Virus record (IMG/VR): IMGVR_UViG_3300025892_000021
Span: 1-61,364 of that record
Reading direction: 5' to 3' (one strand)
Source of the DNA: a virus
DNA: 61,364 nucleotides
In this document: in pieces, positions 2,684-52,365 of the stretch
Numbering within the stretch: position 1 is the first letter of the stretch
Layout: every line of letters starts with the position of its first letter
The notes under the pieces: generated by a model
What the model was told of the DNA's origin: nothing
Seen by the model: the letters and a program-made list of their open reading frames with translations, nothing else
The model's database searches: none
Made by a program: the position numbers and the translations under genes

Positions 2684-2896
2684 TTAATCTACCAAATCAA
2701 AAGTATTTGGATTTTCCATCTCCTCTTCAATTATTTCCATATCAACTTCAAGAGAAGCATCTACATAATTAGGGTCTGTTGGTAATGGAACACTATTACT
2801 TTCAACTTTGGTAATTGCTTGTTCCCAAGATTCCGCTTCAACTTCTACTTGGGCATAAACTTGCCATGAACATGGTACTCTATATGTTTTTTTCAT
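2684..2896 (-). CDS. DpnD/PcfM-like small protein, paralog 1
   Basis: 70 residues built as a short beta strand (YRVPCSWQVYAQVEVEA) followed by ESWEQAITKVES and an acidic tail. The pattern strand-(V/I)EAxxxxEAxxK recurs in three other genes here (3768-4013, 5412-5633, 5615-5824) and resembles the DpnD/PcfM-like family, whose function is unknown. Its start overlaps the stop of the upstream gene. Confidence 0.7.
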   Translation of the reverse strand: MKKTYRVPCSWQVYAQVEVEAESWEQAITKVESNSVPLPTDPNYVDASLEVDMEIIEEEMENPNTFDLVD

Positions 2897-3123
2897 TATG
2901 CTATCTCCAATTTATAGTATTCGTTTTCTATTAAATCATTATCACTCAAAGAGTCAAGACCTAAGTATTGTTCATAAACCTCACGAATATATTCAAGGCT
3001 TTTTCCTACATAGAAAGAAGCACCATAATCGGGGGCAGAAAGACCATTCTCTCTGTCTATTCTAATAATAGTGTCCAACATTTTTTGTGGTTCAATATTC
3101 CAAACTTTTCTTACGTATTTCAT
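2896..3123 (-). CDS. Hypothetical protein, first gene of unit
   Basis: 75 residues, helical, ending in acidic/aromatic residues. No family recognised. The ATG lies 6 nt after the -10 box of the 3130-3158 promoter, so it is predicted to be translated from a leaderless mRNA together with the DpnD-like gene downstream. Confidence 0.7.
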   Translation of the reverse strand: MKYVRKVWNIEPQKMLDTIIRIDRENGLSAPDYGASFYVGKSLEYIREVYEQYLGLDSLSDNDLIENEYYKLEIA

Positions 3124-3129
3124 AATTGT

Positions 3130-3158
3130 ACTTTAGCAAATATATTTTTATATGTCAA
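3130..3158 (-). promoter_or_regulatory. Promoter, leaderless type
   Basis: TTGACA, 17-nt spacer, TAAAGT, 6 nt to the ATG at 3123. Near-duplicate of the promoter 479 bp to the left. Confidence 0.8.
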
Positions 3159-3175
3159 GATTTTTTAAAATTTTT

Positions 3176-3373
3176 TTAATTTTTTCCAAAGAGTTGATTC
3201 CATTCTTCTCTTATTTCAATGTCAGCAATATCATCTAACCCTTCAAATCCCTCTATTAACATAGTTATCATCTCGCTTGTACCCATGTTCATTGCCTCTG
3301 CTTCAGCGAGATCATGCCTCATGTCATCTATTGATGGTTCGCCTTCTCTTGTTTGTCTTTCTGTTGTTCTCAT
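3176..3373 (-). CDS. Small acidic hypothetical protein
   Basis: 65 residues with a charged, helical sequence (for example EGFEGLDDIADIEIREEW). No family recognised. It directly follows the interrupted gene at 3376-3582 and ends just before the 3130-3158 promoter. Confidence 0.6.
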   Translation of the reverse strand: MRTTERQTREGEPSIDDMRHDLAEAEAMNMGTSEMITMLIEGFEGLDDIADIEIREEWNQLFGKN

Positions 3374-3375
3374 AT

Positions 3376-3582
3376 TTAATCTTCTCCTTGTTGTGTTCCT
3401 ACAATCAATAATTTAACATCTCCACCATCGTCTGTCAAGCCTAATTCTTCGACAACTTGTCCGAATATCGACCCATCAGAGGGTTCAATTCTAATCCATG
3501 CACAATTTTGTCCATCTTCTGTCTCTTAGACGTCCCACTCATGCTCAAGCAATCTAGCTTTCTGATACTTTGTTAATTTCAT
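3376..3582 (-). pseudogene. Small gene interrupted by an in-frame TAA
   Basis: Reading from the ATG at 3582 gives MKLTKYQKARLLEHEWDV, then TAA (3526-3528), then a further 49 in-frame codons (ETEDGQNCAWIRIEPSDGS and on to VGTQQGED) and a proper stop at 3376-3378. Both halves have protein-like composition and fit as one 68-codon gene, with the ATG overlapping the end of the upstream gene as is normal here. Either a nonsense mutation has killed the gene, the stop is read through, or there is a sequence error. No internal ATG, GTG or TTG clearly restarts the second half. Confidence 0.6.
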
Positions 3583-3775
3583 ATAAACTATCTAATTTAA
3601 TGTATTGCTCATCTATCTGTGTTTCTAGCGATTTTATGTATTTATAATTATTTCCTCTTCGGGAATCTTCATAATCTAACTCAATTTCGAGATGTCTAAT
3701 AGACTTCTTTGTATCGTATATTTCGTTTTTAATTTCTTCTTCTTGTTTTAAACCTTCCATAGCTTTTTTATTCAT
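3554..3775 (-). CDS. Coiled-coil hypothetical protein
   Basis: 73 residues, nearly all heptad-like charged helix (KKSIRHLEIELDYEDSRRG region). No family recognised. Overlaps both the DpnD-like gene upstream and the interrupted gene downstream. Confidence 0.65.
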   Translation of the reverse strand: MNKKAMEGLKQEEEIKNEIYDTKKSIRHLEIELDYEDSRRGNNYKYIKSLETQIDEQYIKLDSLYEINKVSES

Positions 3776-4013
3776 TTAATTTATTTTTAATGTGAATTGA
3801 ATAATCCCCTTCCTTAACATATAAATCATCTTCTGTTAATCTCCAACACTCTTCTCCTGCCTCGTATTCATCTGCATACTCAATATTAAAATCGCAATCT
3901 CTGAGAGTTGATTCAATACTAAGTTCTCTTACCTTTTGTTCGGCTTCTTCTTTTGATTCGGCTTCAACATAAAAAGTATTATATATTTTAATTCCTACTG
4001 CGTAATTTTTCAT
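3768..4013 (-). CDS. DpnD/PcfM-like small protein, paralog 2
   Basis: 81 residues: strand YAVGIKIYNTFYVEA, then ESKEEAEQKVRELS, then an acidic, aromatic tail. Same plan as the genes at 2684, 5412 and 5615. Function unknown. Overlaps its neighbours on both sides. Confidence 0.7.
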   Translation of the reverse strand: MKNYAVGIKIYNTFYVEAESKEEAEQKVRELSIESTLRDCDFNIEYADEYEAGEECWRLTEDDLYVKEGDYSIHIKNKLNE

Positions 4014-4164
4014 TTTGATCTAATAGTTCGTCTAGTAAATGTACAATACCCCAACCCATTTCTTCGTCAAGTAGTCCATGAACACCTTCGCCCTTATCAT
4101 CATGCCACAAAATTGATAGCAAATGATCCCTTTGTTTTTCTAGTAATTTGTAATCAATGTTCAT
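3988..4164 (-). CDS. Small acidic protein, 58 aa
   Basis: Starts MNIDYKLLEKQRDHLLSILW and ends NEKLRSRN at 3988. The ATG (4162-4164) overlaps the TGA of the upstream gene as ATGA, the arrangement used by most genes here, and the frame is open for 58 codons with protein-like composition. No family recognised. Confidence 0.65.
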   Translation of the reverse strand: MNIDYKLLEKQRDHLLSILWHDDKGEGVHGLLDEEMGWGIVHLLDELLDQNEKLRSRN

Positions 4165-4655
4165 TTTTTTGCTATATATTTATTTAGATAATTGCCCGAA
4201 GCTTCCATGTTTTTTAAGTGACCTTCAAAAACAGGGTCATCGTCTCCCATTAATTTTTGTCTATATTCTTCTGCCATATCAGAACCCCATTCATCAACTG
4301 ATTCATCAGATAAATCACAAGCAATTTCTATATTAGTAATGTTGTGCCATGCTTCTTCAGCAAAGACACTACCATCCTTATTGCGACTTGGTCTTTTAAA
4401 CCTTTTATTGCAATTCTTTTTGATATGCCTATCTATAATTTCAATATCATCTTTGACGCAAGCCAAGCGATGTTTAAGTTGAGCATTTTCTAATAGCAAT
4501 CTTTCTAAATTATCTTTAGTTATTTTTTGTTCGACTTCATTTAGGTAAGTGCAAGCATCTTCAAGGGTCAAGTTAGATGCTTTAGCTTTTTCTGCAAGAC
4601 TCATGTTTACAGAGTCTTCATAAGTTGGGTGATCGTCTCCTATAATTTCTTTCAT
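4161..4655 (-). CDS. Hypothetical protein with coiled coil, 164 aa
   Basis: A helical N-terminal half with a likely coiled coil around residues 45-80 (ENAQLKHRLACVKDD), then a basic stretch NKRFKRPSRNKDG and an acidic C-terminal part. No family recognised. It is the first gene of its unit; the ATG is 6 nt from the -10 box at 4662. Confidence 0.75.
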   Translation of the reverse strand: MKEIIGDDHPTYEDSVNMSLAEKAKASNLTLEDACTYLNEVEQKITKDNLERLLLENAQLKHRLACVKDDIEIIDRHIKKNCNKRFKRPSRNKDGSVFAEEAWHNITNIEIACDLSDESVDEWGSDMAEEYRQKLMGDDDPVFEGHLKNMEASGNYLNKYIAKK

Positions 4656-4661
4656 GTTCGT

Positions 4662-4690
4662 ACCTTAATCTATTTTTTTCTTTCTGTCAA
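4662..4690 (-). promoter_or_regulatory. Promoter, leaderless type
   Basis: TTGACA, 17-nt spacer, TAAGGT, 6 nt to the ATG at 4655. Confidence 0.75.
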
Positions 4691-4825
4691 GACTTTTTGT
4701 GCAATTCTTGTTAAATTATATTCTTCTTCAGTTAAATAGGAATAACTAAATAGAAATTCTTCTTTAGTCAACCTGTCAAAGTCATACATTTTTTCTTTAT
4801 CATCTAAGAAGTCAGTTGCTTTCAT
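4670..4825 (-). CDS. Small hypothetical protein, 51 aa
   Basis: I take the ATG at 4825 (MKATDFLDDKEKMYDF), 5 nt after the upstream stop at 4830. Starts further up (4855, 4897) are possible but would overlap the upstream gene more than usual here. Acidic, helical, no recognised family. Its 3' end overlaps the promoter at 4662-4690. Confidence 0.6.
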   Translation of the reverse strand: MKATDFLDDKEKMYDFDRLTKEEFLFSYSYLTEEEYNLTRIAQKVLTERKK

Positions 4826-4829
4826 TTTT

Positions 4830-5123
4830 TTATGGGTTTTTGATTTTTTTGCCATCAACACTAATCTCTCCTCTAATATATGCGCCAAAGTCATCATTAT
4901 TTAAATGAGATGTATCGGGCGGAACAACACCAAACTCTCCACCTATACCTAAAAGTTTTGCTCTATCATTAAGTCTTTTGTTCATCTGCTCTTTTAGTTG
5001 AAACATTTCTTCTACAATATCTTCAATAAGAGGATAACCTGCTAACTCGAAAAGACGAGTGTCTAGTCCACTTTCAACTTCAAATAAACTATCTATTTTA
5101 TGCGCTTCTTCTATTTTATTCAT
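4830..5123 (-). CDS. Hypothetical protein, 97 aa
   Basis: Helical N-terminal two thirds (EMFQLKEQMNKRLNDRAKLLG) followed by a short hydrophilic tail with VVPPDTSHLNNDDFGAYIRG. No family recognised. Its start overlaps the stop of the AbrB-like gene by 8 nt. Confidence 0.7.
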   Translation of the reverse strand: MNKIEEAHKIDSLFEVESGLDTRLFELAGYPLIEDIVEEMFQLKEQMNKRLNDRAKLLGIGGEFGVVPPDTSHLNNDDFGAYIRGEISVDGKKIKNP

Positions 5124-5415
5124 TTTCTTTTATTTTTTCTTTTACTGCTTCCTCGCAGAGTTCATTAAATGTAATATTTTTTTCATGTGCGAACATCATA
5201 TACTTTAACAAATCATCACTACTAAAGTCAAGCTCAATTTTCTCATATTTTCGTAAATCAATTTTAACTTTTCTGATAATAAATGCTTCGTCTTGTGGGA
5301 TAAATTCTAATTCATCACCAACTTCCCATCCTAATCTCTTTAATAGATCATCGGGCAAGCGAAAATATAATTCACCATCAAAACTTTCTTTAACTTCTAA
5401 TTCTGAGACTTTCAT
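5116..5415 (-). CDS. AbrB/SpoVT-like domain protein
   Basis: 99 residues. Residues 16-50 read ELYFRLPDDLLKRLGWEVGD then ELEFI and FIIRKV, the swapped-hairpin AbrB/MazE pattern (hydrophobic-P-xx-hydrophobic-LGW-xGD). This fold usually binds DNA as a dimer in transition-state regulators and antitoxins. The C-terminal half is acidic and helical (FAHEKNITFNELCEEAVKE) and not part of the classic fold. No toxin gene is recognisable beside it, so a stand-alone regulator is more likely than an antitoxin. Confidence 0.65.
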   Translation of the reverse strand: MKVSELEVKESFDGELYFRLPDDLLKRLGWEVGDELEFIPQDEAFIIRKVKIDLRKYEKIELDFSSDDLLKYMMFAHEKNITFNELCEEAVKEKIKENE

Positions 5416-5633
5416 TTTAATTCCATTGAATCTTCTCCAGATTCTTTTTCCCTTTCTTCTACAAAACTAACTTCAGCATTTTGTTTCCATGTTTTACTTA
5501 TTTCCCAATCAGCATCAACTTCATCAAAAGCCCTACTGACTGCATCATCTTTCGATTCTGAATCAATAAAATAAGTGCGATAAGTTGTGCTTGCTATTTC
5601 TATTTCAAATGTTTTCATTTTATTTCCTCGCAA
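5412..5633 (-). CDS. DpnD/PcfM-like small protein, paralog 3
   Basis: 73 residues. Starts MRGNKMKTFEIEIASTTYRT; M6 is an alternative start. Strand plus FIDSESKDDAVSRAFDEVDA follows the shared paralog plan, then an acidic tail. Overlaps the AbrB-like gene by 4 nt. Confidence 0.7.
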   Translation of the reverse strand: MRGNKMKTFEIEIASTTYRTYFIDSESKDDAVSRAFDEVDADWEISKTWKQNAEVSFVEEREKESGEDSMELK

Positions 5634-5824
5634 CTAAAAACTCCTCTATCTCTATGAGTGTGATCACCATGATATTTAGTTAAGTCGTGATTGTAAAAAA
5701 GTTCTTCACAACCATGTTCGTCAAGTAATTCTTCTGCAATTTCTTCTGCTTCATCTACATTCTTAGCTTCAACTACAATGTATCCACCAATTTCTTCTGT
5801 TACTGATAATCTATACTTCTTCAT
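5615..5824 (-). CDS. DpnD/PcfM-like small protein, paralog 4
   Basis: 69 residues. YRLSVTEEIGGYIVVEAKNV followed by DEAEEIAEELLDE is the clearest DpnD/PcfM-like sequence of the four paralogs. The tail is His-rich (HDLTKYHGDHTHRDRG). It is immediately upstream of paralog 3, so a tandem duplication is likely. Confidence 0.75.
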   Translation of the reverse strand: MKKYRLSVTEEIGGYIVVEAKNVDEAEEIAEELLDEHGCEELFYNHDLTKYHGDHTHRDRGVFSCEEIK

Positions 5825-18378: not shown

Positions 18379-18774
18379 TGGTGGAGATGGCGGGAATTGA
18401 ACCCGCGTCCTAATAATCTTCAAGCAAGCATATCTACAAGTTTAGTCAATTTTTTTTAAAGTTATGATATTGACATCCAACTCCCTATTACAATTATTCA
18501 CTCAAAATGAGGTCTCCGAATACTCAGCGATACAGTTTATTAACAGGTAAACCTTTTCTGTTTTGCAGATAAATTACCCCTTGTCCTTTATATCTGCGTC
18601 AAAAGGCAAGAGGTAGCAGACTTACGCTGCTAGGGCAAGCGACTCGCTCTGAGGCGAGTAAGCTTTAATACGTGACTTGTTGCCATGTAAGAGTTTGCAC
18701 TTTTTTAACGAAGCCAAGTACACCTCCGACTTGCAATGCAAGAATTCAATTTTAGTCGAATCCTGTACATCCCC
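18379..18774 (-). ncRNA. ssrA: Transfer-messenger RNA (tmRNA)
   Basis: 396 nt with tRNA-like ends: 5' GGGGATG pairs with 3' CATCTCC, then ACCA; CCA is encoded. The T-arm reads GCGGGTTCAATTCCCGC. Pseudoknot 1 is visible as CGGAG/CTTCG plus GTACTT/AAGTGC. Twelve nt after it the frame GGC AAC AAG begins (18684), with A at position -4 as in E. coli, and runs 20 codons to TAA at 18622-18624: a tag starting GNKSRIKAYS and ending SESLALAA. The TAA lies in the loop of a TAGCAG/CTGCTA helix, as in helix 5. tmRNA rescues stalled ribosomes and marks the peptide for proteolysis. It is one-piece, not permuted. Confidence 0.93.
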
Positions 18775-18794: not shown

Positions 18795-18825
18795 ACTATA
18801 TTAATACACAATTTTTATTTTTCAA
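18795..18825 (-). promoter_or_regulatory. Possible promoter for the tmRNA
   Basis: TTGAAA, 19-nt spacer, TATAGT, about 20 nt before the mature 5' end. The spacer is longer than at other promoters here, so this is tentative; read-through from the upstream sigma operon is the alternative. Confidence 0.35.
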
Positions 18826-20428
18826 TATTAACACTTTCGAAAAAACTTTTAAAATCATTTTTTGAAATAGTTTTTTTTCTTACTAAATTAATTAATATAG
18901 AACGAACAGAAGACTTATTTAAATTAATATGTTTAGATATTTCCTCATATTTATATCCCGACCTTAATGCTTTAAGTATATAAGAATATTCATAGTTTTT
19001 ATATGGTTTTTCTTTTATTTGTTGGTATTTAGGAATCAACCCTTTTCTAACAAAGGTGGTTCTGTGACCATGAATAACATAAATAGGAAGTTTTAATTCT
19101 TCAGAAATAAAATTCATATAATCATTATTTATAAAACCTTCGATTAGAACATTAGATACTAAATAATTAAATTTACTTGATAATATTTCTTTAATTGTAT
19201 CTGAATTTTGATTTTTTTTATTAAGTTTAATTATTTCATAGCCTATATTAAAATACTCAACTATTCTTTTCTTTTGACATTCTGTAACATTATGCTTTAC
19301 TCTAATACAATCAAATAATTTACTTTTAAAAACCCTCCTCAAAAGCTTCATTCTTTTTATCCTCATTTTAGATGTTTCAAGCAAGACTCCTGTTTTGTAA
19401 AGGTGAGTTTCTTTAGCTCTAATAGAACTAATTGGCTTGCCTAGTTTTTTAGAGATTTCTTCTCCAGGGCAACCGCTTGTAGAAAGTTTTATAAGTTGAG
19501 ATTCTTCTTCATCCGAAAAAGTTTTTATATATATTTGTTTTTTCTTTTTTAAAAGAAAGCCTAATTTAAGCCATCTAGATTGATTAATTATTTGATATTC
19601 GGAATATTTACCATTTAAAAAATTCTTACTTATATACTCTCCTGTATAGGTATTAGGGTTTTTTAGTAAAATAGAAGATAAAACTTTTTTATCTACATCA
19701 TTAAAGTAAACATGATCGTTGTGTTCAAAAAAATCATTTATAGCATTATTTCCTTCTGTAACTTTTTCAAAAACTTCATCATTTAAAACTTTACTAGAAA
19801 TACCTTCTTTTAATACCCCTATGGATTTTACTTTTTGCACTATCTTCTGGTAAGTTATATCAATAGCTTGTCTAGTTACTCCGAGATCTTCGGCTATATC
19901 TTTTTGTTTTTTTCCTGACTGTAAACTTGTAAATATTTTACATTCATTATTAGTTAGTCTTGATTTTATTTCATTTAAAATGTACTTATATTTGTCGCCA
20001 ATATTTATATTTTCTACTTCAGCCTCAACTCCATGTGACTCAAGGAAAATATCTAAAGTGCTTTTCTCTCCCTCATCTGTATAATAAATTTTATCTACTC
20101 TATTCGCATTCCATTTTCCAGATTTCTTTTTTCCATCTGTTTCTCTAGAGTAAATCCATTTGATTAGATTCCTACAATATATAAAAGAGGTATGCTTGAA
20201 TGATTCAAGATCAAATTCTTTACCTTGAGATTCAACATAATCAAATATTTTTTGTTTATTTTTTACTAAATAAAGATTTACTTCCGACAAGAGTTCATCG
20301 CTACTTAGTGGATGACTATTACTTTTATATTTTCCAATTATTTTTACCAAATCCTGTTGGAAATCAATTAAATAGTAGTCAAACTTTTTTATTTTTTTGT
20401 GTTCTGCTGTATTTTGTTGGGAATTCAT
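18815..20428 (-). CDS. Sigma-like factor with extra HTH domains
   Basis: 537 residues. The first 200 parallel the gene at 21909-22592: a helical region, W-Y/H-rich middle, then a region-4-like HTH LTNNECKIFTSLQSGKKQKD followed by IAEDLGVTRQAIDI. The rest contains at least two further HTH-like segments (SGCPGEEISKKLGKPISSIR; RSGYKYEEISKHINLNKSSV). No region 1 and no clear classic region 2 are seen, so it may be an alternative sigma factor or a sigma-derived regulator. It overlaps the partner-type gene upstream by 50 nt and ends just before the tmRNA. Confidence 0.6.
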   Translation of the reverse strand: MNSQQNTAEHKKIKKFDYYLIDFQQDLVKIIGKYKSNSHPLSSDELLSEVNLYLVKNKQKIFDYVESQGKEFDLESFKHTSFIYCRNLIKWIYSRETDGKKKSGKWNANRVDKIYYTDEGEKSTLDIFLESHGVEAEVENINIGDKYKYILNEIKSRLTNNECKIFTSLQSGKKQKDIAEDLGVTRQAIDITYQKIVQKVKSIGVLKEGISSKVLNDEVFEKVTEGNNAINDFFEHNDHVYFNDVDKKVLSSILLKNPNTYTGEYISKNFLNGKYSEYQIINQSRWLKLGFLLKKKKQIYIKTFSDEEESQLIKLSTSGCPGEEISKKLGKPISSIRAKETHLYKTGVLLETSKMRIKRMKLLRRVFKSKLFDCIRVKHNVTECQKKRIVEYFNIGYEIIKLNKKNQNSDTIKEILSSKFNYLVSNVLIEGFINNDYMNFISEELKLPIYVIHGHRTTFVRKGLIPKYQQIKEKPYKNYEYSYILKALRSGYKYEEISKHINLNKSSVRSILINLVRKKTISKNDFKSFFESVNIEK

Positions 20429-21425
20429 TGCTCCAATTTATATTATATATCTTTTTAGATCTAACTAAAATTTTATCAAAATGAGATTGTTTTAAACCTA
20501 AGAATTCAGCGGTTTTTTTTCTGCTGTTTTTAAATTTTGGCAAAGTTTCTTTTATTTTAGGTATTATTTCACTATAAAATTTTTTTCTTTTTTCTTTTTT
20601 AGCTTTTTTGATATTTTCAATTCTTATTTTATGGTCTTCTTCTGTCATAAAACTAAAAGGGATTTCCCCCTCGCTCATTCTTTTTTTCATCACTTTTTTT
20701 TGAGTAGACGATCTTTGTTGCTTTGACACTCTAGGCGGAGGAATGCGAACATAAGGGTATTCTTTATTCCACCAATCTAAAGGCTCTATCCTAGTCATCA
20801 TTTTATAAAGAGTATTTCTACCAACTTTTAGATATTCAGCAGTTTTCTTTCTATTATTTTTTAAAAGTTTAAAAGCTTCTATTATTTGTTGTTTAGTCTT
20901 TTCCATCTCTTCCTTATCCCATTTAATCCATTTGCCCTTATATATCATGCCTTTTCTTTCTTCGATGGGTAAATATATACCCTTTCTATTTATATGAGAC
21001 CAATTATCTTTACCTTTTTTAAAACCAATAGTAGACAATAATTCATAGTTTGTATAATTAAACCTATTCGATTTTCCTTCATCTCTTGGCATTTCTTTTT
21101 TAAAAAGAACATTATTATAATTAGGGAATGAAGCTTTTTTTATTTGATCCCAATTTTCAAATGTTAGCCTTCTATTCATATGTAGTTTATAATTTCCATG
21201 AAACATAAAACCATGAACGGATTTTATTTTTTTTACTAAACCTTCTTCTTTTAGTTTTTTTATCAAAATTAATTTTGCAAAATCATAAGATTTAGCTCTT
21301 ATAAATGTTTTGAAATCTTTTTCTGAACCATCAAAATAATGCTCAGTATAATTTATATTCCAATATTGATCTACATTAAATACTTTGTTTCTAAAAATTT
21401 TTTGAATACTCTTTGATTTTTTCAT
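20379..21425 (-). CDS. Partner-family protein with Fis-like HTH repeats
   Basis: 348 residues. Residues 20-110 form a domain shared with 22589-23011 and more weakly 25968-26435: YWNINYTEHYF, FIRAKSYDFAKLILIKKL, KIKSVHGFMFHGNYK, then W-x-x-I and SFPNYNNVLFK. The C-terminal part has two similar Fis-type HTHs (FKLLKNNRKKTAEYLKVGRN; LPKFKNSRKKTAEFLGLKQS). Basic throughout. It is nested between two sigma-like genes, overlapping both, so a regulator or cofactor of those sigma proteins is a fair guess, not shown. No named family matches the first domain that I can recall. Confidence 0.6.
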   Translation of the reverse strand: MKKSKSIQKIFRNKVFNVDQYWNINYTEHYFDGSEKDFKTFIRAKSYDFAKLILIKKLKEEGLVKKIKSVHGFMFHGNYKLHMNRRLTFENWDQIKKASFPNYNNVLFKKEMPRDEGKSNRFNYTNYELLSTIGFKKGKDNWSHINRKGIYLPIEERKGMIYKGKWIKWDKEEMEKTKQQIIEAFKLLKNNRKKTAEYLKVGRNTLYKMMTRIEPLDWWNKEYPYVRIPPPRVSKQQRSSTQKKVMKKRMSEGEIPFSFMTEEDHKIRIENIKKAKKEKRKKFYSEIIPKIKETLPKFKNSRKKTAEFLGLKQSHFDKILVRSKKIYNINWSNEFPTKYSRTQKNKKV

Positions 21426-21909
21426 TTTTGTCTTTAAAAAATAATTTCATTCTCTTGATCATTGAACTCTTTAACCTTGAAGTGTTAGTTGGCTTTATGG
21501 ATAATTCTTTTGAAATTTCTTTTACACTAAAGCCTTCTCTCAACATTTTATATATTTTATACTGCTTATTTGATAGATAATTTTGTATTTCTAGATCTAA
21601 TTTTATTTTTTCATCTTGAATTAGATAATGAAAAGGGTCTTCAATGGCGGGGAAATCTTTGTGTTGAAAATTTATAAATTTATTATTCCATCTCTTTCTC
21701 TCAGTTAAATATCTTTTTATTTGAAATCTAGTAATTGTCATAGCCCAACCTGAAAACGATTTTGAATTATCATATTCATTTCTTTTTTTTATTAATATCA
21801 AATTAACATTTTGAACTATATCTTCAGCATTTTTGTGATCATAAACCACACCATATACATATTTTCTTATTCTAGGTTGTATAAATTCTAAATCTTCGTC
21901 TGTAAGCAT
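21391..21909 (-). CDS. ECF-type sigma factor
   Basis: Start taken at the ATG of a TAATG overlap with the upstream stop (a GTG at 21918 is also in frame); 172 residues, standard ECF size. Region 2: VVYDHKNAEDIVQNVNLILI then KSFSGWAMTITRFQIKRYL (the -10-recognition helix). Region 4: LSNKQYKIYKMLREGFSVKE then ISKELSIKPTNTSRL (HTH that reads -35). No anti-sigma gene is recognisable. It could direct phage promoters, but the window's promoters look more sigma70-like. Confidence 0.8.
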   Translation of the reverse strand: MLTDEDLEFIQPRIRKYVYGVVYDHKNAEDIVQNVNLILIKKRNEYDNSKSFSGWAMTITRFQIKRYLTERKRWNNKFINFQHKDFPAIEDPFHYLIQDEKIKLDLEIQNYLSNKQYKIYKMLREGFSVKEISKELSIKPTNTSRLKSSMIKRMKLFFKDKNEKIKEYSKNF

Positions 21910-22592
21910 TAGCGACACTCTTTTTTAAATAAATCTTCAATTGACTGCTTGCCTATGGAGATTTTTCCCCAACTCTCATCTTTGAAAAAGTCAAATTTAA
22001 ACCTACAGCTAATTTTTTCTTTTAACTTTATCATATTAAAAGAAATAGCTTGATGAGTACATCCAAGAACATCAACCATATCTATTTGCTTGTACCCTTG
22101 GGATAATAAAGACATAATTTGAATTTCATTTGAAGTTAGCCAATTACTATAATCCTTCATTAATTTCATTAAATATTTATATTTATAAGAATCGTCAAAA
22201 TTATCTAAATCCTCACAACCAAGAGTTTCACAAGCAAGTTCAAAAGATGTTATTTTTCCATCTTCAGTATTATGCTCAAAATCTAACCTTCTAGATTTAA
22301 ATTTATCATCTCTTGCCTTACAATGATACCATGATATTGATTTTTTTAAAAAACAACAAATAACATATTTAAAAGTTTCAAAATTAAATTCAGTAAATTT
22401 ATCATCTCTGTAGTTGATAATTTTTTCTTTACCCTTAATTGCATTATAATTAAAATCGCTAAGAATTTCTTCAATAGACATAGCATGAAAATCTTTTCTT
22501 TTAGATCCTATCAGTTTTTTTAAATCTGGTTGGAATTCAGATAAATATTGATGAAATTTCTCTTCATCGGTATTTTTTTGAACAGTATTCAT
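21909..22592 (-). CDS. Sigma-like factor
   Basis: 227 residues, similar along its length to the first 200 residues of the protein at 18815-20428. A helical region with SIEEILSDFNYNAIKGKEKI, a W/Y-containing middle (SISWYHCKARDDKFKSRR), then a C-terminal HTH: LTSNEIQIMSLLSQGYKQID followed by MVDVLGCTHQAISFNM. Sigma region-4 logic is clear; region 2 is divergent. Its 5' end overlaps the partner-type gene by 4 nt. Confidence 0.65.
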   Translation of the reverse strand: MNTVQKNTDEEKFHQYLSEFQPDLKKLIGSKRKDFHAMSIEEILSDFNYNAIKGKEKIINYRDDKFTEFNFETFKYVICCFLKKSISWYHCKARDDKFKSRRLDFEHNTEDGKITSFELACETLGCEDLDNFDDSYKYKYLMKLMKDYSNWLTSNEIQIMSLLSQGYKQIDMVDVLGCTHQAISFNMIKLKEKISCRFKFDFFKDESWGKISIGKQSIEDLFKKECR

Positions 22593-23011
22593 TTTAAATT
22601 TTTAATCTTATTTTCATTCCTTATTTTTATTTCAAACTCATCCATACGGACTAATAAATGTCTAAATAAAAAATTATTTTCATTAGGGTAAGCACAATTT
22701 CTTATATTCTCCCAATCTTTTATATTAATAATGTTTTGAGATCTATCATTTGACCTGTCAAAATGGTAGTTTTTATGAAACATAGAGCCTCTTATATTTT
22801 TTATTTTTAAGAAAGGAGTATCGTCTTTTATCTTTTTAAATAAGATTTTTGTTGCAAGATCAAACGATCTAGCTTTTATTACAGATATATATGTTGACTC
22901 TTCTTTTTTATTCTCAAATAATGAATATTGAATCTTCCAATATTGATCAAAACTAAATTTTTTTGACCTAAAAGCTTTTTGTTTTATAGAACTGTTATTC
23001 TTCATCTTCAA
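22589..23011 (-). CDS. Partner-family protein, short form
   Basis: 140 residues, basic. Shares with the gene at 20379: FDQYWKIQYSLF, VIKARSFDLATKILFKKI, KIKNIRGSMFHKNYHF, then W-x-x-I and AYPNENNFLFR, but lacks the Fis-like HTHs. It immediately precedes the sigma-like gene and overlaps it by 4 nt. Function unknown; the repeated coupling with sigma-like genes is the main clue. Confidence 0.6.
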   Translation of the reverse strand: MKMKNNSSIKQKAFRSKKFSFDQYWKIQYSLFENKKEESTYISVIKARSFDLATKILFKKIKDDTPFLKIKNIRGSMFHKNYHFDRSNDRSQNIINIKDWENIRNCAYPNENNFLFRHLLVRMDEFEIKIRNENKIKNLK

Positions 23012-23573: not shown

Positions 23574-23876
23574 TTATTCGTTAAAAAATTCTAATTGATC
23601 TTTATTAATAGTTCCTCTATCTACTTCCGATTGTAGCATACTTTTGTTTGATTTGTCAAGATTATTTTTTTTACTTTTTCTAAGCCAATTTCTTTGAGCC
23701 ATTCTAACAACAAAACGCATGAATGCAAAAGCATAAATTTTATTTAATTTTATACTACCACCACCAGTCGAATATCCACCCTCATTCTCTCCATGTGGAG
23801 CGATTTTAATTGTGAAATCTTTATTTTCTTCGTTATACTCAAAAGTTGCGTATTTCAATTCTTTTTTAATCTTCAT
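23574..23876 (-). CDS. Hypothetical protein, 100 aa
   Basis: Beta-rich N-terminus (KYATFEYNEENKDFTIKIAP), a Gly/Ser turn GGYSTGGGSIKL and a basic helix RMAQRNWLRKSKKN. No family recognised. Overlaps the methyltransferase gene by 11 nt. Confidence 0.65.
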   Translation of the reverse strand: MKIKKELKYATFEYNEENKDFTIKIAPHGENEGGYSTGGGSIKLNKIYAFAFMRFVVRMAQRNWLRKSKKNNLDKSNKSMLQSEVDRGTINKDQLEFFNE

Positions 23877-24912
23877 TTCTTATTTGTTTTAATATTTCCA
23901 AGCACATGGTCGGAGGAAAACATTCTCCTAAAACTTTTCTAATAAACCCTTCTGAATATTTATTTTTAAATTTATTTAAAAATTGAGAAGGTAACCCACA
24001 TAAAATAGATAATTCTTCAACAGACATCACTCTTGCATCAGAATAAGTTCCATCAGTAAGTAATTTTCCTGGATGCACATTATTTTGACTAGATATAGCT
24101 CCATTGCACATTGTGACAGTAGGAGAAGGTTTATCCCAATCTATTCTTTTATATGTAGTCATAAACCCTTTAATTCTTCTTCCATCTTTTTTAGGGTAAT
24201 GAATTTTATTATTAAATGCAGTTTGACCTGTTGGAGTACTCTTCATCCAAATTATATGATGAGGATTATGTTTTTTTGCATAATGCCAAGGTATTGAACT
24301 TGATCTTCCAGATTCTAAAGAAGGTAGATGTCCTATAGCATCCTTAACGGTAATAACTTTGGTCATTTTTTGGGGATGATTCCATGTTTCATCTTTAGAA
24401 ATTAAACCTATAAACCTTTTTCTTGATTGAGGAGTGTTGTAATCCTTTGCATTAAGGACATCACATCTAATCTTCCAAGGCGATGGTAATCTAGATTCTA
24501 TATATTTAATTATATTAACTACTTCTCCGTCTATATTTATCCAAGTATTAGCCATACCTGCAACATTTTCTATCAACATATAACTTGGTTTTATTTCATT
24601 AAAAACATCCATTGCATGAACTATTAAAGAATTTCTAGGATCATTTTGAGATCTTTTTGCATTAGCTACACTCATCCCTTGACATGGTGGGGTTGCTAAT
24701 ATTATATCTATATTAGAACATTTTTTATATATATTTTCTTTTGTATCTGATTTTGTTATATCCCCACATAAGACTTCTGTATTAGGATGTAAGTCTTTAT
24801 ACATCTTACATCTATCTTCGTGCAATTCGTTCGCAACGGAAACATCTATATTTAATTTATTTAAATAAATTTCTCCAAAACCAACGTTTGAGAATAAAGA
24901 TAGAGCTTTCAT
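23866..24912 (-). CDS. dcm: DNA cytosine-C5 methyltransferase
   Basis: 348 residues. Motif I LSLFSNVGFGEIYL at the start, motif IV ATPPCQGMSVANAKR with the catalytic Cys, motif VI YMLIENVAGM, and motif VIII/IX-like NAKDYNTPQSRKRFIGL. The C-terminal target-recognition part is followed by a final helix (FIRKVLGECFPPTMCLEIL). It transfers methyl from SAM to C5 of cytosine. No restriction partner is recognised beside it, so an orphan, protective or regulatory methylase is likeliest. It has its own promoter at 24961. Confidence 0.93.
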   Translation of the reverse strand: MKALSLFSNVGFGEIYLNKLNIDVSVANELHEDRCKMYKDLHPNTEVLCGDITKSDTKENIYKKCSNIDIILATPPCQGMSVANAKRSQNDPRNSLIVHAMDVFNEIKPSYMLIENVAGMANTWINIDGEVVNIIKYIESRLPSPWKIRCDVLNAKDYNTPQSRKRFIGLISKDETWNHPQKMTKVITVKDAIGHLPSLESGRSSSIPWHYAKKHNPHHIIWMKSTPTGQTAFNNKIHYPKKDGRRIKGFMTTYKRIDWDKPSPTVTMCNGAISSQNNVHPGKLLTDGTYSDARVMSVEELSILCGLPSQFLNKFKNKYSEGFIRKVLGECFPPTMCLEILKQIRNED

Positions 24913-24960: not shown

Positions 24961-24989
24961 ACTTTACTAAATTTTTTTCGATATGTCAA
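24961..24989 (-). promoter_or_regulatory. Promoter for the methyltransferase
   Basis: TTGACA, 17-nt spacer, TAAAGT, 48 nt to the ATG at 24912. One of three promoters here with a leader. Confidence 0.75.
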
Positions 24990-24996
24990 GAAAAAA

Positions 24997-25419
24997 TTAC
25001 AACCAATATTGATTTAAAGAAAGAAAGTCTGAATAAACCATCTTCCAAATTGAGAATCTTGTTTTATGATTCCCTGCCCAAATAAAATTTTTTTGCAACA
25101 TATAAAAACTTGAACCATAATTATATAAAGGCTCACTGAAGTCGTAAATATATAAAATATGAGATATTTTTTTTTCAGAAAAAGATTGAACTTGAATTAT
25201 TGGAGAAGAATTGTTAATTTTTTTTACTATAATTTTATTTAGAATAAATTTAATTGGATTAGTTGAATCATATTTAAGTACATCTAGATGATCTGAGCTT
25301 GTGGCAGTGCCTTTTACTAATAAAGATTCGCAAAATTTATTGTTATAATCGCATAGTAAATTCTCAAAAAATGGCTCACAATCTTTGAATAAATGCTTAA
25401 CTGCTGGACTCTTGTTCAT
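24997..25419 (-). CDS. Hypothetical protein next to HNH nuclease
   Basis: 140 residues, Ser/Asn/Phe-rich, with mixed beta and helix (KFILNKIIVKKINNSSPI; SFSEKKISHILYIYDFSEP). No family recognised. Overlaps the HNH gene by 23 nt, so they share a transcript. Confidence 0.65.
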   Translation of the reverse strand: MNKSPAVKHLFKDCEPFFENLLCDYNNKFCESLLVKGTATSSDHLDVLKYDSTNPIKFILNKIIVKKINNSSPIIQVQSFSEKKISHILYIYDFSEPLYNYGSSFYMLQKNFIWAGNHKTRFSIWKMVYSDFLSLNQYWL

Positions 25420-25984
25420 GTTTCCATTTTAGAATAGCCTCACAAAGAATATAAAGTTCTTCAACACTTAGGTCATTTTTTGCATAATTAGCTTGCTTAG
25501 TACATATGCCCAGATTATCTAAATCATTAGTTCCACCTTTTGAAGTTGGAATGATATGATCCAAATGATATGTTTCTGACTTATTTATATTAATTTTTTT
25601 TCCAGTAAGATAACACTTAGGATTATCGCCGAATTTTTCTATAACATCTTTAACTGAAAAATTTTTGGAAACATTATTAACAAAAGCATGTGTTCTATTT
25701 CTGTACTTCCGTTTTTTAAATGTTTTTATTTTAGTTCTAAAAGTTTCATAGCTTTCTTTAGAGCATCTAGATTTAAAAGCACTTATTTTTTTAGTCAACC
25801 TATGAAGAGATGTAGTATTTCGAGCTTTTACTCTTTTTTTCTCAGAAGAATTCTCGCCACAATGATAAGATATTACAGATTTTGAAACCCCTAAGATGCT
25901 TTGTATTTCATTATAGCTTTTTCCTTCTGCTCTTAATCTTAATATATCGTCTTTTCTTGCTTTATTGTTAAGTTTCCTCTTCAT
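25397..25984 (-). CDS. HNH endonuclease with N-terminal HTH
   Basis: 195 residues. Residues 8-38 form an HTH (KARKDDILRLRAEGKSYNEI then QSILGVSKSVISYHCG). A basic middle leads to the HNH: CYLTGKKININKSETYHLDH, IIPTSKGGTNDLDNLGICTK, then a helix ANYAKNDLSVEELYILCEAI. The HH, N and H of the fold are present. Free-standing HNH enzymes of this type are usually homing or mobile nucleases. Overlaps the partner-like gene by 17 nt. Confidence 0.8.
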   Translation of the reverse strand: MKRKLNNKARKDDILRLRAEGKSYNEIQSILGVSKSVISYHCGENSSEKKRVKARNTTSLHRLTKKISAFKSRCSKESYETFRTKIKTFKKRKYRNRTHAFVNNVSKNFSVKDVIEKFGDNPKCYLTGKKININKSETYHLDHIIPTSKGGTNDLDNLGICTKQANYAKNDLSVEELYILCEAILKWKHEQESSS

Positions 25985-26435
25985 TATTATCTTTAGACCC
26001 GACGATCAAGGATTTATTACCTTTTACAAATTTACCTTTTTTATCTCGCTTTCCAATCTCTATCTTTAAATTTTTATTCCAAGGAGTAAACCCTTTTTTA
26101 AAAGTTCCATTGTGATTTCTAGATTTTGAGAGAGGAGTTTTAAACCAATTATGTTTTTTAAACTTATAAAGCTTGTGTTTTGTATTAGGGTAAGAGACTC
26201 GATTTAATAAATCTATTTGTTTGTCTGATAATTTTCTACCTCTATAATTATTTTTATTAATTAAATAAGAGCGAACATTGCTTAATTCAAATACCATATA
26301 ATCTTTACTAATTTTTCTTCTTAAAGTAGATTTAGAATCCTCTATAGAAGAAGATTTTATTATAGTTTTATAATCTACCTTTTTATCTACTGATAACGAA
26401 AAGTAAACTATGTATAATTCATCAGTATTTTCCAT
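25968..26435 (-). CDS. Partner-like protein, third member
   Basis: Start taken at the ATG 26433-26435, which sits 6 nt after a -10-like box; 26471 is the longer alternative. 155 residues. TIIKSSSIEDSKSTLRRKIS, KNNYRGRKLSDKQIDLLNRV then SYPNTKHKLYKF track the AKS...SFPNxNNxLFK pattern of 20379 and 22589, but more weakly. The end is basic. Coupled with an HNH nuclease rather than a sigma gene. Confidence 0.55.
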   Translation of the reverse strand: MENTDELYIVYFSLSVDKKVDYKTIIKSSSIEDSKSTLRRKISKDYMVFELSNVRSYLINKNNYRGRKLSDKQIDLLNRVSYPNTKHKLYKFKKHNWFKTPLSKSRNHNGTFKKGFTPWNKNLKIEIGKRDKKGKFVKGNKSLIVGSKDNNEEET

Positions 26436-26441
26436 TATATT

Positions 26442-26471
26442 ATATAATAACGATCTTTGATTAAAATTCAA
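26442..26471 (-). promoter_or_regulatory. Weak promoter, leaderless type
   Basis: TTGAAT, 18-nt spacer, TTATAT, 6 nt to the ATG at 26435. Weaker match than the others; it is just downstream of the terminator at 26474. Confidence 0.45.
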
Positions 26472-31038: not shown

Positions 31039-31460
31039 TCTAAATTTTTAAAAGGTTTAAAACTTTCTGTAGAAAAAAGATCTAATGAAAATTTATTGTC
31101 TACGTTATATTTTTCCGCAGGGAGCATAGTTGTATATATTTTTATCTCTTTTTTAAAATCTGGATTAAAAAAGTTTAAAATCTGGCGAGAATTATGAATA
31201 TTTTTATAAGAAATTTGAGCAAGAAATTTACTAAATGGATATTGATATGAAAGCTTATCTTTAATATCTATAAACAAAGAAGCTTTTGTTATTACGAAAT
31301 AATTACAAGGCTCTTTATTGTAAAGCAATGGCTTTCTACCTTCTGTGATTTTAGAAAATTCATTTAGAAAATCAAAAGAGACATTATTATTACGAAGAAA
31401 ATTTAATACAAAACTATTTCGATTGCAATATATGAAATATTTGTTAACAATATTATTCAC
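31011..31460 (-). CDS. Hypothetical protein, 149 aa
   Basis: Rich in Asn, Phe, Tyr and Lys (NKYFIYCNRNSFVLNFL; SFDFLNEFSKITEG). No domain recognised. Overlaps the SHD1 gene by 4 nt and converges on the plus-strand gene. Confidence 0.65.
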   Translation of the reverse strand: MNNIVNKYFIYCNRNSFVLNFLRNNNVSFDFLNEFSKITEGRKPLLYNKEPCNYFVITKASLFIDIKDKLSYQYPFSKFLAQISYKNIHNSRQILNFFNPDFKKEIKIYTTMLPAEKYNVDNKFSLDLFSTESFKPFKNLDQLKELSDL

Positions 31461-32473
31461 CGTATTCCACTATTGGGGTTTTTTGTTAATCTATAATATT
31501 CCATGAAGAATTCCCTGTCTGTCTCTATGCTTGAGTATATAGCTTTAAAATTCATTTTTTGAGGAAGATAAGGATCACCGCAAGGGTCTATCAAACAACC
31601 AGCAGGGCAATGCATAGTTTTTTTAATGTTCCTTAGGGGAGAAGAGCCTATTTTAAGTGGATTTCTGGACAAAACAATATATGACAATGTTTTAAAATTA
31701 GGTAATGATTTGTCGATATATCTAATGTTGTTACATCCAACCTTTAAATAATTCAACCAAACACAATTTACTAAAGGATCAATTGATTTTATTCGATTTT
31801 GTGAAAGGTCACATGCAACTAGGTATTTTAACTTAGATAAAGGCTCTAATTTTTCGATATGACAATCTCTAATCCTAACAGTCATTAGTTTGGGAAACTT
31901 TAAAAGAGCATCAAGATTCTTTACGGTTTCATATTCCTCAATTTCAATACTTAAAATTTCAGAAGAAGGCAGTGATGATATTGGCAAACAAGACGAACAA
32001 TAATCCTTAGGCAGACTAATGATACCACGTTTATCATAATTTTTTCTATAAATTTCTATTCCTGAGTATCGATCAGGAGAATAAGGACGAATGGATAATT
32101 CTTCATTAATAACTTTTTCTAAAACACAAGTATAATCTTCAGCACTAGAAGTTCCCCATTTCGGAGGTAAAACTTGACTATGGTTATTAAAATTTGTAAA
32201 AACAAATGTATTTTCTTTAGCTTTAGGTTTTAAAACATTTTTCTTTTTATTTTTGTTTGCATCCCATTCTCTGACGAAAGCTTGATCAGACGGAATTAAT
32301 TTATCAATTCTTAAAGAAATCTTATCGCCTGATGGCTTTTTAAGACTCACAATACGATTACTAAAATCAATTAACTCTGCATTTATCGTACTACCATGAG
32401 TACTAGTCCAACTTCGAGACTCTACAGTCAATGAAGTTATAAAAAATATGACTGAAATTTTAACGATATTCAT
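31457..32473 (-). CDS. Secreted SHD1 plus leucine-rich-repeat protein
   Basis: 338 residues. A short signal peptide (VKISVIFFITSLTVES), then an SHD1 domain: RSWTSTHGSTINAELIDF, IVSLKKPSGDKISL and IPSDQAFVREW. This R-x-W-T-S...G-x-x-x-x-A-x-x...V-x-L-x-K-x-x-G pattern is common in Planctomycetes and Verrucomicrobia. From about residue 170 there are LRR-like units (LKYLVACDLSQNRIKSIDPL; LKVGCNNIRYIDKSLPNF), and CPAGCLIDPCGDPY near the end. Likely acts outside the cytoplasm, possibly binding a host or phage ligand. It looks acquired from the host lineage. Confidence 0.75.
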   Translation of the reverse strand: MNIVKISVIFFITSLTVESRSWTSTHGSTINAELIDFSNRIVSLKKPSGDKISLRIDKLIPSDQAFVREWDANKNKKKNVLKPKAKENTFVFTNFNNHSQVLPPKWGTSSAEDYTCVLEKVINEELSIRPYSPDRYSGIEIYRKNYDKRGIISLPKDYCSSCLPISSLPSSEILSIEIEEYETVKNLDALLKFPKLMTVRIRDCHIEKLEPLSKLKYLVACDLSQNRIKSIDPLVNCVWLNYLKVGCNNIRYIDKSLPNFKTLSYIVLSRNPLKIGSSPLRNIKKTMHCPAGCLIDPCGDPYLPQKMNFKAIYSSIETDREFFMEYYRLTKNPNSGIR

Positions 32474-40500: not shown

Positions 40501-43053
40501 CTATCTTAAATCAGATAATTTCATATAAATTTTCTCATCTACTATACTGGCTTCGTTCAAAAAAAGAACATCGTCACCTTTTGATCCTAGCAATAAAACT
40601 ATATTGTCTTTTTCTGGAATCTTAGATTTACTTTTAAATTTAGAAAGTTTTTTGTCTCTTCCGTCAACCATAATTGCATTGTACCTGCCGAATTCATCAC
40701 TTACGGAAAGTCTCATATAATCATTTCCATTTTTGCTTTTTCTACATATGACATCATCTACAACTGCAATATATTTAGAAATTTTATTTTTTTCACAAGA
40801 GTAAAAATAAGAAGAATCATTTAACCTCTCTGCCTGATCTCCGAATGAATCTCTCAGTGAATTACTATAGCTAAAACCTAATAAGGATTTTTCAAAATAC
40901 CAATTAGCGAAATCTTCATATTTTCTATTTTTATCATAAATTAATTTATAATTTTTATAATTTTTCTTCAAAGTTTCAAATCTTTTTTCTGGCATTATTG
41001 GTCTTTTGTCATCGCCTATTAAATTATTTGATACTGCATCATGAACGGAATTTAATATATCATAATTATATTTTTCTCCAAGAGAAATAAAATTTCTCTT
41101 TTCCCTTTCTGTTAGAAGGTTAAAAACTTGAGCTTCTAAAACTAACCTTGGCCTGTTTGTCTTGTAGCTAGATAATGACCCAGCTTGAATTAATGCAGAA
41201 AGAATTCCTATATTTAGACCAGCAGATTTAGCCGCCAAAAATATATCATACTTGTTAGGTTTTTCTGAATCTCTAAAATCTTTTAATGCAGATAAAGATT
41301 TTTCGCTAATACCTTTTACACTATTTAGTCCAAACCTTATGTCTTTACCTTCTATTGTAAAATCCATTTCGGAAAGGGATAAATCTGGAGACAATAATTT
41401 TATATTAAAATACGATAACTCTTGGCATATTTTATTTATTTCTTGTTGGGGAGAAGGTTCATATTTAGTCATTTTCAACAAGCTAAGAAAAAACTCTTGA
41501 GGATGGTTAAATTTTAAATAACAAGTCCAAGCTGATAATATTGAGTAAGATATTGAGTGGCTTTTATTGAAAGAATAATTAGCGCTATCTTCAGCAACTT
41601 TCCATAAAACATTGCCAACTTCTTCGTCTAGCTTATTTTTTAATATCATTTTTGATATTTTTTCTCTCCATTTAGGCATTTCTTCTACTTTCTTTTTGCC
41701 CACTATCCTTCTTAGTTGCTCAGACTCATCTAAAGTAAAGCCAACTTTAACAGCCATCTTCATTAGCTGCTCTTGATAAAGAGGAATTCCACCAGTATAA
41801 CTTAATACATCATCAAAAAAAGAATTAACACTTTGAAAGTCTCCAGTTTCAGAATACCTTTGATAATAATCCATGAAATCCATAGCTCCTGGCCTTGCTA
41901 TCGCAATAACAGCACTTAACTCCTCAAGGTTTTTAGGTTTTATTTTTTTACAGACCATATAATTTGCATCCGCTTCAATTTGAAATAATCCATGAGGAGT
42001 TCTAAGCTCTTTAAAGTGATGGTATATTCTATTACAAGAAAGATCAATATCTTCTGGATTTAAATTAATTTGATTACATGTGTCATGAATAGCGGATAAG
42101 GTTCTCAGTCCTAATATGTCAAATTTGACCATTAACTCGGCTACCCAGTTCATGTCATAGCCTGTTACTATTGAACCATCATTTGTTTTTTGTATCGGGC
42201 ATATTTCGGTTATTTCACTAAAAGATATTGCTATGCCTGAAGGGTGGACTCCAGTATTCTTTTTAAGTCCTTCTATTTTTCTTGAAATTTCATATATTAG
42301 TTTATTTTTATCACAAAAATCCTTAAACTCTACTGATGAAGAATAAGCTTCTTTTAATTTACAGACAATGCCGAAATTTTTTGGAATAAAATCACTTATA
42401 TTATTTACATCTTGCTCAGAAAGCTTTCCTACTATTTTCCCGCATTCTTTTGTACATAATTTACTGCTAAGAGTATTTAGAGTCAATATTTTAGAAGTTC
42501 TATTGGGGTGCTTCGACTCAATATAGTCAATAACTTTTTGCCTATGTTCGTAAGCTATATCGTTATCAACATCAGCCAACAAACTTCCATCTAAATATTT
42601 TATATTATTTTTTTCTATTATTTTTGCTCTGCTTTTTGATACGAATCTTTCAAAAAACAAATCATATTTTATTGGGTCAACTTTAGTGACTCCAATTAAA
42701 AAAAGAACTAAAGATCCCGCTGCAGACCCTCTTCCTGGGCCAGTAGGTATATTAGTTTCCTTGCAATAATTAATAACATCCCAATTTAAAAGTATGTAAT
42801 CAATAAACCCTAAATTAGATAAGACAGAAAGCTCTTCTTTTAATCTTTTCTTATAAACGGTTGATTTTTTAGAATTAGATAAATCTTTTTTGATAAATTC
42901 TGACTCACAAAGAGAAGTTAAGAACTCAAGATTAGAAGATTGTTTTGGGATGTTTAATTTTTTATAATATTTATCTTCAATTTCTAAACTAGGAAGTCTA
43001 ACTCCTGGAGGATGACAATCTTTATAACTGGAAAACTGTTCTGTAAAATTCAT
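40501..43053 (-). CDS. dnaE: DNA polymerase III alpha core, PHP domain absent
   Basis: 850 residues, short for DnaE because the N-terminal PHP domain is missing. Palm: TNIPTGPGRGSAAGSLVLFL, then LLADVDNDIAYEHRQKVIDY (catalytic Asp pair) and MVKFDILGLRTLSAIHD (third Asp). Later a fingers region with SYSILSAWTCYLKFNHPQEF, HhH-like IGILSALIQAGSL and an OB domain (KYIAVVDDVICRKSKNGNDY). The PHP-like domain is encoded 1.8 kb upstream. The core should polymerise if partnered; exonuclease activity would come from the adjacent gene, separated by 1 nt. Confidence 0.9.
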   Translation of the reverse strand: MNFTEQFSSYKDCHPPGVRLPSLEIEDKYYKKLNIPKQSSNLEFLTSLCESEFIKKDLSNSKKSTVYKKRLKEELSVLSNLGFIDYILLNWDVINYCKETNIPTGPGRGSAAGSLVLFLIGVTKVDPIKYDLFFERFVSKSRAKIIEKNNIKYLDGSLLADVDNDIAYEHRQKVIDYIESKHPNRTSKILTLNTLSSKLCTKECGKIVGKLSEQDVNNISDFIPKNFGIVCKLKEAYSSSVEFKDFCDKNKLIYEISRKIEGLKKNTGVHPSGIAISFSEITEICPIQKTNDGSIVTGYDMNWVAELMVKFDILGLRTLSAIHDTCNQINLNPEDIDLSCNRIYHHFKELRTPHGLFQIEADANYMVCKKIKPKNLEELSAVIAIARPGAMDFMDYYQRYSETGDFQSVNSFFDDVLSYTGGIPLYQEQLMKMAVKVGFTLDESEQLRRIVGKKKVEEMPKWREKISKMILKNKLDEEVGNVLWKVAEDSANYSFNKSHSISYSILSAWTCYLKFNHPQEFFLSLLKMTKYEPSPQQEINKICQELSYFNIKLLSPDLSLSEMDFTIEGKDIRFGLNSVKGISEKSLSALKDFRDSEKPNKYDIFLAAKSAGLNIGILSALIQAGSLSSYKTNRPRLVLEAQVFNLLTEREKRNFISLGEKYNYDILNSVHDAVSNNLIGDDKRPIMPEKRFETLKKNYKNYKLIYDKNRKYEDFANWYFEKSLLGFSYSNSLRDSFGDQAERLNDSSYFYSCEKNKISKYIAVVDDVICRKSKNGNDYMRLSVSDEFGRYNAIMVDGRDKKLSKFKSKSKIPEKDNIVLLLGSKGDDVLFLNEASIVDEKIYMKLSDLR

Positions 43054-47035: not shown

Positions 47036-47084
47036 ATTATATATATACACAAATAAAAAAAATATAAAATTTTAAAAAAAAGTG

Positions 47085-47090
47085 TATAAT
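47085..47090 (+). promoter_or_regulatory. TATAAT box before plus-strand gene
   Basis: TATAAT lies 6 nt before the ATG at 47097, the same leaderless geometry as on the other strand. No good -35 is seen 17 nt upstream. Confidence 0.45.
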
Positions 47091-52348: not shown

Positions 52349-52365
52349 TACATAATATGTTACAC

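Follow-up and report, generated by a model that had tools for sequence, protein, structure and literature searches.

A conserved partner–sigma factor gene unit and two promoter classes in uncultivated tailed phages: a candidate transcription switch

A five-gene sigma factor module

The window analysed here, the complete 61,364 nucleotides of the uncultivated virus record IMGVR_UViG_3300025892_000021 (IMG/VR; 61 kb), contains five overlapping minus-strand open reading frames (ORFs) that encode, in the order transcribed, partner A, sigma-like A, an ECF sigma factor, partner B and sigma-like C. Partner A (22589..23011, minus strand), recognised from the ORF list and by homology, consists of a beta-beta-alpha-beta domain alone (about 138–140 aa), ATG at 23005 being a likelier start than TTG at 23011. 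Sigma-like A (21909..22592, minus; 227 aa), which pairs with partner A, has diverged sigma2 and sigma4 regions and is homologous to sigma-like C. The ECF-type gene (21391..21918, minus) may start at GTG 21918 or at ATG 21909, the latter giving a protein of 175 aa. Partner B (20379..21425, minus; 348 aa) combines a partner domain (about residues 1–115) with a basic linker and two Fis-type helix-turn-helix (HTH) motifs, one at residues 169–216 and a second near 302–327, and sigma-like C (18815..20428, minus; 537 aa) comprises sigma2 (10–97), sigma4 (144–206), a segment resembling the D5 protein of phage T5 (about 259–400) and a C-terminal HTH (478–523). A phage transfer-messenger RNA (tmRNA) gene lies directly 3' of the operon (18379..18774, minus; Rfam RF00023, E 3e-53; also found by ARAGORN).

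An initial annotation of the window had proposed five overlapping minus-strand genes in this order, with a domain common to the first and fourth and about 200 residues common to two sigma-like proteins. All five ORFs are present, with slightly different start choices, and both internal relationships are far beyond chance: within-window comparison gave 39% identity over 123 aa between partners A and B (E 3e-24) and 32% over 235 aa between sigma-like A and C (E 3e-34). The three motifs noted in the shared domain (AKSxxxA, MFHxNY and PNxNNxLFK) are conserved in relatives of the window.

Three sigma factors

Evidence from Pfam, fold searches and homology agrees with the earlier proposal of three sigma-like factors and supports the presence of three genuine sigma factors in the operon. 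The ECF gene matched Pfam Sigma70_r2 (E 2e-13) and phrog_1740 (E 5e-16), and sigma-like C matched Pfam Sigma70_r4_2 (E 3e-8). Fold searches (Foldseek and VIA-align) with an AlphaFold model of sigma-like C (mean predicted local distance difference test score (pLDDT) 75) returned mainly solved sigma factors, its sigma4 region (residues 146–206) aligning with 3vfz (Z 10.4, root-mean-square deviation (rmsd) 1.1, 61 residues) and its sigma2 region (residues 10–102) with 5uxx (Z 9.2, rmsd 3.0, 81 residues). Sigma-like A was related to the ECF family by profile comparison (probability 84%, E 7e-6), the sole source of its sigma2 assignment. An arrangement in which one protein supplies sigma2 and another sigma4 was ruled out, because both domains reside in the sigma-like C chain.

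Residues 259–400 of sigma-like C matched phrog_323 (T5 D5 family, E 5e-13), and comparison of this segment with annotated D5 proteins by tblastn gave a weak match (28% over 108 aa). The predicted structure and the fold search identify sigma-like C as a sigma factor with sigma2 and sigma4 domains, extended by a segment like D5 of T5. It measures 537–549 aa in the window and the closest relatives and is shorter elsewhere, some records with a single partner–sigma pair encoding a version of about 220 aa. A further sigma-like protein of 232–240 aa, containing Cys pairs, is encoded in a conserved gene run near the terminase (L121:17317-18015, L146:18969-19679 and L129:13842-14564), with no relatives among cultured phages (50,697 records).

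Invariant pairing and joint duplication

Relatives of the module were sought among contigs of uncultivated viruses and of bacterial genomes, all of them uncultivated and possibly incomplete. The resulting 20 records comprise the window, 17 virus contigs and two contigs binned into bacterial metagenome-assembled genomes (MAGs), with two near-identical contigs counted once. The initial annotation had asked whether partner genes always flank sigma-like genes; a partner gene is immediately upstream of every sigma-like gene (27 of 27), the two mostly overlapping or abutting. In L016 and L018, about 210 nt lie between the partner and sigma-like genes, and partner B has its second HTH in a separate frame. 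At G004:66888-67876 and G009:55960-56972 partner B is split, its second Fis-type HTH lying past a stop in a separate frame.

Twelve records hold one pair and eight, including the window, hold two; contig by contig, partner and sigma-like copy numbers are equal, save for a single pair truncated at the end of its contig. The first copies cluster together in the partner tree (support 71/41) and likewise in the sigma tree (100/97), so that partner and sigma gene were most likely duplicated jointly. The two have stayed neighbours through long divergence, as pairwise identities fall to 26% (partner) and 24% (sigma). The ECF gene was detected in 15 of 16 records, none being found in G008, and varies in position, being upstream of the first pair, between the pairs or, in several single-pair records, elsewhere on the contig.

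Among cultured phages (50,697 records), we found no relatives of either partner, of sigma-like A or of a third, HNH-adjacent paralogue of the partners described below, two matches with E values of 3–6 being at chance level; only the D5-like segment of the module matched. One MAG-binned relative is labelled Halobacteriovorax. The host hint given by a window protein (31457-32473) with SHD1-like and leucine-rich repeat matches differs from that binning, SHD1-like domains being frequent in Verrucomicrobia and Planctomycetes.

The partner family and its HNH-adjacent paralogue

The AlphaFold model of partner B (pLDDT 87.9) shows a beta-beta-alpha-beta domain followed by a helix, the basic linker (NRFN...GFKKG) and the two Fis-type HTHs; partner A corresponds to the N-terminal domain by itself, without HTH. 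The Fis-type HTHs claimed for the fourth gene were recovered as two stretches matching Pfam HTH_8 (E 2e-8), and VIA-align placed them close to Fis/NtrC HTHs (Z about 7, rmsd 1.6–2.8). The domain common to partners A and B matched no Pfam or PHROG entry, in line with the initial annotation, which named no family for it, and a Foldseek search of the Protein Data Bank (PDB) with partner B returned no confident match other than Fis/NtrC HTHs. Searches with Pfam, PDB sequences and Foldseek/VIA-align revealed no resemblance of the partner to a known anti-sigma family. Its N-terminal domain aligned with ribosomal eL20 at Z of about 6–6.7, a range (Z < 8) that may reflect merely a common arrangement, and tiny phage and viral proteins aligned with the partner B model with TM-scores of 0.74–0.82 by target length, assuming that the aligned part is the N-terminal domain. 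The fold may be common among small early proteins. Several tiny ORFs in the window (2684-5824) show a VEAxSxxEA strand-helix pattern resembling the partner domain, and partner A of L004 (4720-5331) has about 70 extra N-terminal residues with Cys/His pairs that other partners lack.

A third paralogue of the partner domain is encoded in the window at 25968..26471 (minus; 167 aa), adjoining an HTH-HNH endonuclease gene (25397..25984, minus; HNH_4, E 2e-8). It is homologous to partner A by profile comparison (probability 94.6%, E 7e-8), carries an FKKGFTPWNK segment as in HNH proteins and matched phrog_1891 ('HNH endonuclease', E 4e-4), an entry that neither partner A nor partner B matched. Its neighbour is an HNH gene in each of the seven records in which it could be placed, and the HNH-adjacent copies form a separate clade of the partner tree, without the MFH motif. 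The partner domain is therefore broader than its association with sigma factors. The idea of a family tied to sigma factors stands as far as the invariant pairing and the shared duplication in both trees are concerned, but not as an exclusive tie; the initial annotation's opposing possibility, an HNH accessory with no genomic association with sigma genes, describes half of what was found, in that an HNH-adjacent relative exists while the association with sigma genes is complete.

Two promoter classes placed by distance to the start codon

A k-mer scan of G008 gave the first hint of two motifs, and promoters were then surveyed in 11 relatives (~1.19 Mb) and the window by counting words at each exact distance from ATG starts. 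Essentially two signal families emerged, together with an A-tract near -45. Class E consists of TTGAC at -38 to -35 (148 occurrences versus ~4 expected) and TGnTAwrGT near -12. Class P consists of GTGTA at -17 to -14 without a -35 hexamer (63 versus ~6 expected; Poisson P 7e-42, a nominal value because the relatives share ancestry and their sites are partly dependent). The classes are nearly exclusive: under a slightly different class definition, one ATG carries both among 132 with class E and 65 with class P. Outside the discovery contig G008, class P was found at 50 sites in ten other relatives (~5.5 expected) and also in the window, and neither class was seen at these offsets in the controls, two T5-like phages and 25 unrelated viral loci.

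Homologous genes retain their class, with 14 P clusters and two exceptions between P and E, namely a family with both elements before one of its members and an epimerase-type gene. The positions of both elements imply a transcription start at or beside the ATG, which would make most such mRNAs leaderless; this suggests that many transcripts of these phages are leaderless, with the ATG at about +1. A sigma70 consensus scan of 16–31.5 kb gave 88 matches versus 85 in shuffled sequence, and the promoters are visible only by their position relative to the ATG. Expectation-maximisation, when seeded with GTGTA, strayed towards GC-rich hairpins, and the position-specific count was used in its place.

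Genes behind each promoter class

Class E precedes small early ORFs, a DnaB-like helicase, the PHP part of DnaE and a UV endonuclease, and its genes are shorter than those of class P (median 106 versus 209 aa, P 3e-5). In nine single-pair records it also stands before the partner gene, whose ATG falls at about +1. The module in the window has no leaderless promoter of its own and has TTGACA-type promoters upstream: a class E promoter of host sigma70 type (TTGACA-N17-TAAAGT; 24961..24989, minus) before the methyltransferase gene heading the run into the module, and a second class E-type core promoter (TTGACA-N18-TACAAT with TG; 23630..23659, minus) inside the run, upstream of the module. The first gene of that run encodes a C5 cytosine methyltransferase (23866-24912). 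As GcrA-type sigma activators act on methylated promoters (PMC7403470), a GcrA-like link between the methyltransferase and the sigma module via methylated promoters is possible by analogy. Elsewhere in the window, DNA polymerase III alpha appears to be encoded as separate genes for a PHP-domain protein (44877-45647), preceded by a class E promoter, and a polymerase part (40501-43053).

Class P precedes a gene of 672–678 aa after the terminase in three phages, which we label portal-position for its place after the terminase, a portal identity not being confirmed by profile search. It also precedes the next gene, of 538–544 aa, in two phages, and a gene for a protein with virion and tail matches. 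In five of six phage tmRNAs, including that of the window, GTGTA lies 31–35 nt upstream of the mature 5' end (window copy at 18805..18809, minus, -35 from that end). Three further class P elements in the window belong to a 379-aa ORF (47082..47086, plus; ATG at 47097), a divergent 360-aa ORF (47046..47050, minus; ATG at 47035) and an 86-aa ORF (52361..52365, minus; ATG at 52348). The tmRNA genes, found in the window, L012, L011, L020, L034 and L036, have mostly unusual tag peptides as predicted by ARAGORN; that of the window (ANSYMATSHVLKLTRLRASRLP) does not end in LAA.

A candidate transcription switch and its alternatives

The reading we put forward is that the operon is a transcription switch of large tailed phages, in which host sigma70 makes the pair, and the pair, with the host core polymerase, reads class P with the partner as co-activator; we judge its chances to be evenly balanced. 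The host main sigma factor would transcribe the partner–sigma operon early from TTGACA-type promoters, after which the sigma-like proteins would bind the core of the host RNA polymerase. Produced in step with its sigma-like protein from the overlapping gene just upstream, the partner would bind that protein and act as a DNA-binding co-activator or specificity subunit, a role that the Fis-type HTHs of partner B would serve, and the resulting holoenzyme would read the GTGTA promoters before the portal-position gene, other virion genes and the tmRNA. Genes for a multisubunit RNA polymerase were found in none of 11 records, with positive controls, so the host enzyme is the most likely target of the sigma factors; searches for a single-subunit RNA polymerase (PF00940) and a T4-type capsid (PF07068) gave no match and were uninformative, the controls being equally silent.

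Several observations weigh against this switch. The partner domain also occurs beside an HNH nuclease and so need not bind sigma, partner A has no HTH, class P shows no conserved upstream element to which a partner might bind, and class P includes genes that are not plainly late, a Clp-like protease in G013 among them. The terminase-linked sigma-like gene of three contigs or the ECF factor could, moreover, read class P in place of the pair. On this question the partner–sigma pair stands, as we read the contigs, at roughly equal chances against the stated rivals taken together. In a rival reading, the fourth sigma-like protein, whose gene adjoins the terminase region in G005, G008 and G013, or the widely present ECF factor recognises the GTGTA promoters, leaving the pair to control another gene set; this seems to us rather unlikely, if deserving of attention. 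G008 has ten class P sites and no detectable ECF gene, which favours the pair over ECF as reader, and the gene run holding the terminase-linked sigma in G013 itself starts with a class P promoter, so that another factor should act first; both arguments are modest as the contigs may be incomplete. In addition, two promoter classes are detectable and no third set is left for the pair.

The partner might instead be an anti-sigma factor or timing inhibitor that holds its sigma-like protein until late infection, with co-transcription fixing their ratio. One-to-one pairing and joint duplication are equally expected of sigma/anti-sigma pairs, and the small single domain of partner A would suit such a role. 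We nevertheless regard it as improbable: the partner gene lies upstream of its sigma gene rather than downstream, the two Fis-type HTHs of partner B are typical of DNA binding and, as weak evidence, no known anti-sigma family was matched. The HTHs, the gene order and the early promoter before the partner lean towards a DNA-binding co-activator rather than an anti-sigma factor. We give an equally poor chance to the view of the partner as an accessory protein of homing nucleases whose gene has come to lie next to several others, its location by the sigma genes being inherited gene order and not function. The paralogue that is always beside an HNH gene, with its FKKGFTPWNK segment and phrog_1891 match, speaks for such an origin, as does the extra Cys-containing segment of the L004 partner A, whereas adjacency to sigma genes holds down to ~25% identity, through duplication and through rearrangement of the ECF gene around it, with no break observed, and the HNH-adjacent copies keep to their own clade without the MFH motif. 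A bolder version of the co-activator switch, in which kin of a homing-nuclease accessory became an obligate phage sigma partner that steers the sigma factor to a minimal GTGTA promoter, the unit then duplicating into two holoenzymes, is speculative and in our view unlikely.

Comparison with known systems

The late promoter element of T4 is a TATA box, in place of which the phages studied here have GTGTA. In T4, gp55 is sigma2-like and gp33 is a co-activator that occupies the place of sigma4 on the beta flap (PMC2988020). A phage sigma factor and a phage co-factor that redirect host RNA polymerase to late promoters are common to T4 and to the switch proposed here, but T4 splits the sigma roles and needs the gp45 clamp, whereas sigma2 and sigma4 are joined in sigma-like C, and the partner has another fold, with HTHs. 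The module would be functionally akin to gp55/gp33, yet is not a member of that system. The resemblance to T5 (D5, phrog_323, Demerecviridae) is confined to residues 259–400 of sigma-like C, the sole part in common, which is here fused to a sigma factor; the T5-like controls lack both promoter classes at the offsets given above.

Among bacterial proteins, RbpA, Crl and GcrA are small proteins, each working together with a particular sigma factor (PMC7403470). The partner differs in being phage-encoded, operon-linked and co-duplicated with its sigma factor, and no sequence or fold match between it and RbpA, Crl or GcrA was found, making the analogy functional only. Sigma-like A and C share the sigma2-sigma4 architecture of ECF sigma factors (Sigma70_r2, phrog_1740) but are too diverged for full Pfam recognition, and sigma-like C has a long HTH-rich extension. 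HNH-associated proteins with an FxKGFTPWNKG segment (phrog_1891) are matched by the third paralogue in both segment and HNH neighbour, the GFKKG-containing basic linker of partner B being a further likeness, whereas partners A and B lie beside sigma genes and have no nuclease domain.

Implications for phage transcription

Phage sigma factors are mostly known from a few model phages. What can be gained from sequence alone is a conserved sigma–partner unit, a phage-specific promoter seen at dozens of sites and a programme of gene expression that looks leaderless, and the pairing and the promoters are solid as results of that kind. Promoter recognition by the pair is now directly testable in vitro, and the promoter motifs would allow early genes to be told from late ones in phage genomes with few annotated genes. 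That one domain is used both next to a nuclease and next to sigma factors is relevant to the origin of transcription factors from parts of mobile nucleases; if the bolder version of the switch is true, the promoter choice of a sigma factor would be aided by a nuclease-type targeting module.

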